Below are positions 37,618-39,636 of a stretch of DNA of 64,000 nt, piece after piece; positions within the stretch are counted from its first letter, which is position 1, and each line of letters opens with the position of its first letter. Both the position numbers and the translations under genes were made by a program. Location: positions 1 to 64,000 of the forward strand of contig QCGG01000002.1 in NCBI GenBank assembly GCA_003280055.1, written 5' to 3'. Below the pieces are notes generated by a model, which searched no databases, was not told the origin of the DNA, and saw nothing but the letters and a program-made list of their open reading frames with translations. This stretch comes from Prochlorococcus sp. AG-363-P19 (lineage in GTDB: Bacteria > Cyanobacteriota > Cyanobacteriia > PCC-6307 > Cyanobiaceae).

Positions 37618-37971
37618 ATGGAACATCCCCAACCTAAAGGAATATCTCCAAGAGCATTGTCTGATTGGCTCAAGAAGGAGTCCTCAAAACCATTTTTGAT
37701 AGATGTAAGAGAGCAAGAAGAACTAAATATTGCTCCCTTCCCAAAAACTGCAATGCATCTACCACTAAGCCAAGCCGATAATTGGTTGCCGAACATTCAG
37801 GATGCAATTCCCAAAGATCAAGCTATTGTAGTGATCTGCCATAGAGGAATTAGAAGCTGGAACTTTGGATGCTGGCTTCTAGAACAACAAGCTGAATTGG
37901 ACGTTTGGAATCTAGAGGGCGGAATAGATTCATGGAGTATGGAAATCAACCCTGAAACACCAAGATATTAA
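37618..37971 (+). CDS. Rhodanese-like sulfurtransferase
   Basis: A single rhodanese domain of 117 residues has 'FLIDVREQEELNIAPFP' (CH2A-like), the active-site loop 'VVICHRGIRSWNFGCWLL' with catalytic Cys in Cys-His-Arg-Gly-Ile-Arg, and 'VWNLEGGIDSW'. It resembles GlpE-type thiosulfate sulfurtransferases; the sulfur acceptor is unknown. The decayed hrcA follows after 79 bases. Confidence 0.9.
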   Translation: MEHPQPKGISPRALSDWLKKESSKPFLIDVREQEELNIAPFPKTAMHLPLSQADNWLPNIQDAIPKDQAIVVICHRGIRSWNFGCWLLEQQAELDVWNLEGGIDSWSMEINPETPRY

Positions 37972-38050: not shown

Positions 38051-38368
38051 TTGCATCAATTATCCTTTAGACAAGAGAAAGTTCTTGGCTCAACGGTTCA
38101 TCACTACCTAGAGACGATCGAATCAGTAAGTAGCAAAACACTTGTGCAAAGATTTGGGTTGCTAGCAGGTGCTGCGACTATTCGCTATGCAATGGGAGAA
38201 CTTGAGCTAAAAGGGTTTCTTACACAACCACATAGATCGTCGGGTCTAATACCAATTCTAATGTCTTATTGGACATGTAACGTTAATAGGGCCAATGCAT
38301 ATGGCCTATTCATCAGCTATGGCAGCCGTAAAACTCGTTGCAAATCACTTAGAAAGACTTTTAAGTGA
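38051..38368 (+). pseudogene. hrcA: Decayed hrcA (heat-shock repressor), head and tail fused by deletion
   Basis: The first 70 residues from TTG 38051 match the HrcA winged-helix domain: 'LSFRQEKVLGSTVHHYLETI', 'SKTLVQRFG', 'GELELKGFLTQPHRSSG' and 'IP'. Similarity then stops. From 38262, in the next frame, the sequence reads 'GHVTLIGPMHMAYSSAMAAV' then 'KLVANHLERLLS', the usual C-terminal end of HrcA ('GVIGP..M.Y'). About two thirds of the roughly 310-350-residue repressor, including the dimerisation and inserted domains, is missing and the ends are out of frame. A 105-residue frame survives but cannot be a working HrcA. HrcA normally represses groESL/dnaK at CIRCE operators. Confidence 0.85.
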
Positions 38369-38379
38369 AAAAAGAAGTC

Positions 38380-39636
38380 TCATAAATCAACTCCTAGCTT
38401 TTGAGCAACAGTATTTACGTCCTTATCTCCACGCCCTGAGCAATTAATAACCACTTCCTTACCAGAGCCAAGAGTTGGGCAAAGTTTTTCAAGCCAGGCA
38501 AAAGCATGTGCTGTCTCCAATGCAGGGATAATTCCTTCTAACTCACTCACCAATTGCAAAGCGTTCAAAGCTTCCTTATCCGTTACCGCTACATACTCTG
38601 CTCTTCCTATTTCAGCGAAATAACTGTGCTCAGGCCCGACTCCCGGATAATCCAAGCCAGCGCTAATTGAATGCGCCTCTTGCACTTGACCTTGATCGTC
38701 TTGCAATAAATAACTCATTGCCCCATGAAGAACACCTATTCGACCCTCTGTAATCGTTGCTGCATGGCGACCAGTTAAGACTCCATCTCCTGCAGCTTCA
38801 ACTCCAATCATTCGTACATTCGTTTGCTGTACAAATGGATGAAACAACCCCATAGCATTAGATCCGCCCCCTACACAAGCCAGAAGCACATCAGGGAGTC
38901 TTCCAAAAGCTTCCTGACACTGTCGCAACGTTTCCTGGCCAATTACCGCATGAAAGTCACGAACCAACATTGGATATGGATGAGGACCTGCCACAGAGCC
39001 AAGGATGTAGTGAGTTGACTCAACATTTGTAACCCAATCCCTAATAGCCTCGCTAGTTGCGTCTTTCAGAGTTGCGGTACCTGCTGAGACTGGCTGTACT
39101 TTTGCGCCCAACAGTTTCATTCGAAAGACATTTAGGGCCTGTCTGCGCATATCTTCCTCACCCATATAAACCACACACTCCAATCCAAAACGTGCACAAA
39201 CAGTTGCCGTTGCAACACCATGTTGTCCCGCACCAGTTTCAGCAATAATTCTCTTCTTGCCCATCCGCAAAGCTAATAAAGCTTGCCCTAAAGCATTGTT
39301 TATCTTATGGGCTCCAGTGTGATTAAGATCTTCTCTCTTGAGCCAAATCCTTGGCCCCCCATCAGCCCTTGAGTAATGAGCTGTCAGTCTTTCAGCCTCA
39401 TACAAAGGCGTTGAACGACCAACATAGGAACGCAAGAGCCTACTCAATTCATCAGTAAAAAATGGGTCTTTCCAAGCTTCCGCAGCAGCTAGCTCAAGTT
39501 CAGCCAAAGCTGGCATCAATGTCTCAGGAACATACTGCCCTCCAAATCGACCAAAACGGCCGGATGCGGATGGTCTTGCGTTCGCTGCAAGATCATCATT
39601 TTTTGATTTAGAAGGAAGCGTGCTGCTCATCGACAA
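38380..39636 (-). CDS. trpB: Tryptophan synthase beta chain
   Basis: TrpB makes tryptophan from indole and serine. The 418-residue protein has PLP-lysine in '[19 protein letters not shown]', '[20 protein letters not shown]' and '[15 protein letters not shown]', plus the C-terminal '[20 protein letters not shown]'. The family ends there, so the 3' end is intact. Its stop is 12 bases from the end of the hrcA remnant frame. Confidence 0.97.

Follow-up and report, generated by a model that had tools for sequence, protein, structure and literature searches.

Does the short open frame between a rhodanese-domain gene and trpB in Prochlorococcus sp. AG-363-P19 still encode a working protein, or is it the remnant of an hrcA gene that this lineage has lost? 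HrcA represses hsp genes at the CIRCE operator, Synechocystis and Nostoc strains deleted for hrcA express these genes constitutively, and a 2020 review describes hrcA as widely conserved in cyanobacteria (PMC7760821). The window (the whole stretch of 64,000 nucleotides that was analysed) belongs to the 194 kb contig C2; the draft genome, 1.78 Mb in 29 contigs, is 94% complete and has its closer kin among single-cell genomes of Prochlorococcus rather than in Synechococcus. An earlier note, made from the sequence of the window, had read the locus as an hrcA reduced to its DNA-binding head and its C-terminal end, with the middle gone and the two ends out of frame. We aligned it with the intact hrcA of two genomes of the same genus, G001 (L031:3419-4417) and G003 (L032), in which the gene occupies the same place between the rhodanese gene and trpB, and each of these points was borne out. 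The parts of the locus are as follows.

37618..37971, forward strand: rhodanese-domain gene, upstream neighbour and syntenic anchor (synteny comparison)
38051..38368, forward strand: 105-codon open frame with a TTG start, 68 HrcA codons followed by 37 out-of-frame codons (open reading frame listing)
38051..38254, forward strand: hrcA head remnant, codons 1-68, winged-helix DNA-binding domain (alignment to G001 and G003 hrcA, TIGR00331, whole-genome search)
38255..38270, forward strand: junction, 16 nt where G001 has 696 nt (alignment to G001)
38271..38366, forward strand: hrcA tail remnant, last 32 codons, in the +1 frame relative to the head (alignment, search with the G001 protein, TIGR00331)
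38380..39636, reverse strand: trpB, convergent, syntenic anchor on the other side (synteny comparison)

The head ends at the GRIP motif, which here reads GLIP, and the tail, which the earlier note had placed from 38262, encodes GHVTLIGPMHMAYSSAMAAVKLVANHLERLLS. The 232 codons (696 nt) that G001 has between the two are down to 16 nt in the window, which amounts to an out-of-frame net loss of 680 nt. To this the alignment adds that the native hrcA stop codon has been lost, the tail frame extending to 38447, beyond the end of the convergent trpB. Intact G001 HrcA found only two matches in the whole window genome, the head (69% identity, E 1.1e-23) and the tail (78% identity, E 3.5e-8), and the NCBIfam hrcA profile TIGR00331 matched both the head (E 1.5e-17, profile 3-67) and the tail (E 1e-4, profile 307-337 of 338). 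The C-terminal HrcA domain, PF01628, had no match at threshold anywhere in the window genome; below threshold, profile positions 198-215 alone were matched, in another frame (E 0.1). When the search with intact HrcA was loosened to E up to 1, it likewise returned the two fragments and no second hrcA in the 94% complete genome; a copy in its missing part is still conceivable. The order rhodanese, hrcA, trpB is also common to many named picocyanobacteria in the synteny comparison.

We then compared the remnant with 47 intact HrcA proteins of marine and freshwater picocyanobacteria, counting as conserved the positions shared by at least 93% of them (38 of the 68 in the head, 17 of the 32 in the tail). 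The N-terminal winged helix is recognisable over TIGR00331 positions 3-67, yet seven of the 38 conserved head positions are changed, as are three of the 17 in the tail; the intact proteins have at most two changed in either part. The conserved winged-helix residues affected include P25S, S40G, S46Y and R66L. Changes were also assigned to branches, with G003 as outgroup and five neighbouring genes (trpB, rhodanese, SUI1-like, cysC and purE; 1031 codons) as reference. On the window branch, 17 codons of the remnant carry an amino acid found only in the window and 6 a silent change found only there, compared with 53:112 in the five neighbours (Fisher p=0.0002). This ratio is neutral-like and rests on 23 informative codons, with small counts per gene. 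On the G001 branch the same codons stand at 4:9 versus 43:103 in the neighbours (p=1), and the departure is confined to the window branch.

hrcA is cleanly absent, with the rhodanese gene adjoining trpB, from eight genomes (G002, G006, G013, G019, G020, G030, G035 and G041). G002, of the same genus as the window, has no trace of hrcA between these two genes, and searches of G013 and G041 with intact HrcA hit nothing but long unrelated frames, at chance level. An RpoB tree pairs the window genome with G001 (99/94), then adds G003 (94/88) and then G002, and a tree of trpB plus rhodanese recovers the same pair within the same four-genome clade, the pair having starred support in both. Both trees make the window loss and that of G002 separate events, and on the RpoB tree hrcA must have switched between intact and lost four times or more. 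Four more genomes without an HrcA match (G022, G031, G038 and G043) were left uncounted since their trpB and neighbouring rhodanese gene are unmatched too, the one rhodanese match in G038 being a distant paralogue, and we read this as an assembly gap. Separately, hrcA of Synechococcus AG-673-B04 is frameshifted at a long C run (L124:1700-1710) and is intact in its near relatives L135 and L136; this could be either an assembly error in the C run or a new inactivation.

For the operator, a genome-wide CIRCE pattern search allowing one mismatch returned mostly chance matches, and the regions upstream of groES were read directly instead. A pattern search of the window itself found no CIRCE site, and groEL2 is without one in all genomes examined. 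Upstream of groES, roughly 100 bp from the start region of the gene, stands TTGGCACTC-N9-GAGTGCTAA. In the window genome (G000, L092) the site reads TTGGCGATC-N9-GAGTGCTAA and keeps 16 of the 18 positions of the picocyanobacterial consensus. G001 (L094), with its hrcA intact, also scores 16/18 (TTGGCGGTC), so that no operator decay can yet be attributed to the loss of hrcA. The A-to-G change at position 6 of the left arm is common to these two genomes and occurs in no other intact genome examined; position 7 is changed in several intact genomes. Where groES was read, CIRCE scores 16-18/18 in all 29 genomes with intact hrcA versus 9-13/18 in all seven clean-loss genomes (Mann-Whitney p=3e-5, uncorrected for kinship), and an independent-pairs test has just two kinship-independent pairs, both agreeing but too few for significance. 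The window genome is intermediate, its hrcA broken and its operator still at 16/18. Since groES transcription in Synechocystis starts inside the CIRCE loop (PMC2662882), part of the CIRCE sequence may, by analogy, be held by promoter function.

Among the genomes left uncounted above, G038 (L190), with its hrcA locus unassembled, has a groES CIRCE degraded to 13/18 (TTGTCACACATCGGCATTGAGTAATTA), which predicts another hrcA loss there, and G022, G031 and G043 (L202, L192 and L194) retain 17-18/18, which predicts that the hrcA missing from these incomplete genomes lies in their unassembled part.

Could the strain nevertheless carry an intact hrcA, the missing 680 bp being an error of assembly or amplification? 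The draft state of the genome, in 29 contigs, leaves room for such an artefact, but a deletion introduced into an otherwise intact gene would show no changes at conserved sites, no neutral ratio and no lost stop. Here head and tail are both altered at residues conserved in the 47 intact proteins, the change ratio is unconstrained on the window branch only, the native stop is gone and the junction lies well inside the 194 kb contig, and we consider an artefact highly improbable. Much the same evidence bears on a suggestion of the earlier note, that the 105-residue frame might still make a bare DNA-binding domain, for example a weak constitutive competitor or repressor that still binds CIRCE. 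The frame is open and holds most of the winged helix, and the groES CIRCE persists; against this stand the four substitutions at conserved winged-helix positions, the neutral-like ratio and the 37 codons of unrelated sequence that follow the head. Moreover, HrcA is described as dimeric (PMC7760821), and the window copy lacks most of the sequence beyond the winged helix. The suggestion thus finds no support, and a retained domain of this kind is very unlikely.

A largely intact CIRCE beside a broken hrcA might also mean that a second, diverged HrcA or some other repressor encoded elsewhere now acts at the site. The genome has no PF01628 match, however, the loose HrcA search yielded the two fragments and nothing else, and retention of the operator is explained equally well by a time lag and by its overlap with the groES promoter, so we give a replacement repressor hardly any credence.

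We conclude that hrcA in this lineage is very probably a dead gene, which would have undergone a net loss of about 680 bp after the split from G001 and then drifted without constraint. Homologous pieces lie in the orthologous position (by synteny with G001, G003 and named picocyanobacteria), the gene bears disabling changes (deletion, frame break and lost stop), and constraint is relaxed on the window branch alone. Counting against a dead gene are the head, still open over 105 codons with a plausible start, and the groES operator at 16/18. The loss of HrcA control proposed in the earlier note stands, given the lack of a second copy and of constraint in both remnants; its qualifier "recent" can mean no more than that the loss came later than the G001 split, many replacements having accrued since. 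The very probable course of events is that one or more deletions removed some 680 bp from the middle of hrcA, taking most of the sensor/dimerisation region and shifting the tail out of frame, and that head and tail then drifted, with loss of the stop codon as well. By analogy with the Synechocystis and Nostoc knock-outs, CIRCE would have ceased to mediate repression of groESL, which would be constitutive from its promoter; the CIRCE over that promoter is as yet undecayed. The loss in the window is one of several independent hrcA losses in Prochlorococcus, the older ones having left neither gene nor operator. A finer order is conceivable, though rather doubtful, in which the left half of the operator drifted (the A-to-G change of the window genome and G001), hrcA was then deleted and the palindrome was erased later. 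If this is true, Prochlorococcus would have moved groESL from repression to constitutive expression repeatedly, following one and the same sequence of steps.

The remnant is thus an ordinary pseudogene, a case of gene decay in a streamlined genome, useful as an intermediate: the loss has recurred, and here the repressor is broken and the operator persists. Within the open-access literature searched, neither the loss of hrcA in Prochlorococcus nor a recurrent joint disappearance of repressor and operator turned up. Set beside relatives of one genus in which the gene is intact (G001, G003) or cleanly deleted (G002), the locus makes it testable in what order, and with what consequence, streamlined cyanobacteria lose heat-shock repression.

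Both fragments derive from the HrcA/CIRCE system (TIGR00331; T. maritima HrcA structure 1STZ), and a CIRCE-like operator precedes groES as in that system, but with the middle absent, the frame broken and the stop lost, HrcA cannot be made from the window copy. The locus is a natural counterpart of the Synechocystis and Nostoc hrcA knock-outs (PMC7760821), in which the repressor is likewise lost and the operator present; the mutants express heat-shock genes constitutively, whereas the loss described here arose in a wild lineage. According to PMC8113500, citing Holtzendorff et al., kaiA of Prochlorococcus is similarly a regulator reduced and lost in the course of evolution, with stepwise deletion proposed. 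That paper disputes the reading of the MIT9303/MIT9313 gene as a kaiA pseudogene, whereas both ends of the former hrcA are recognisable in place.
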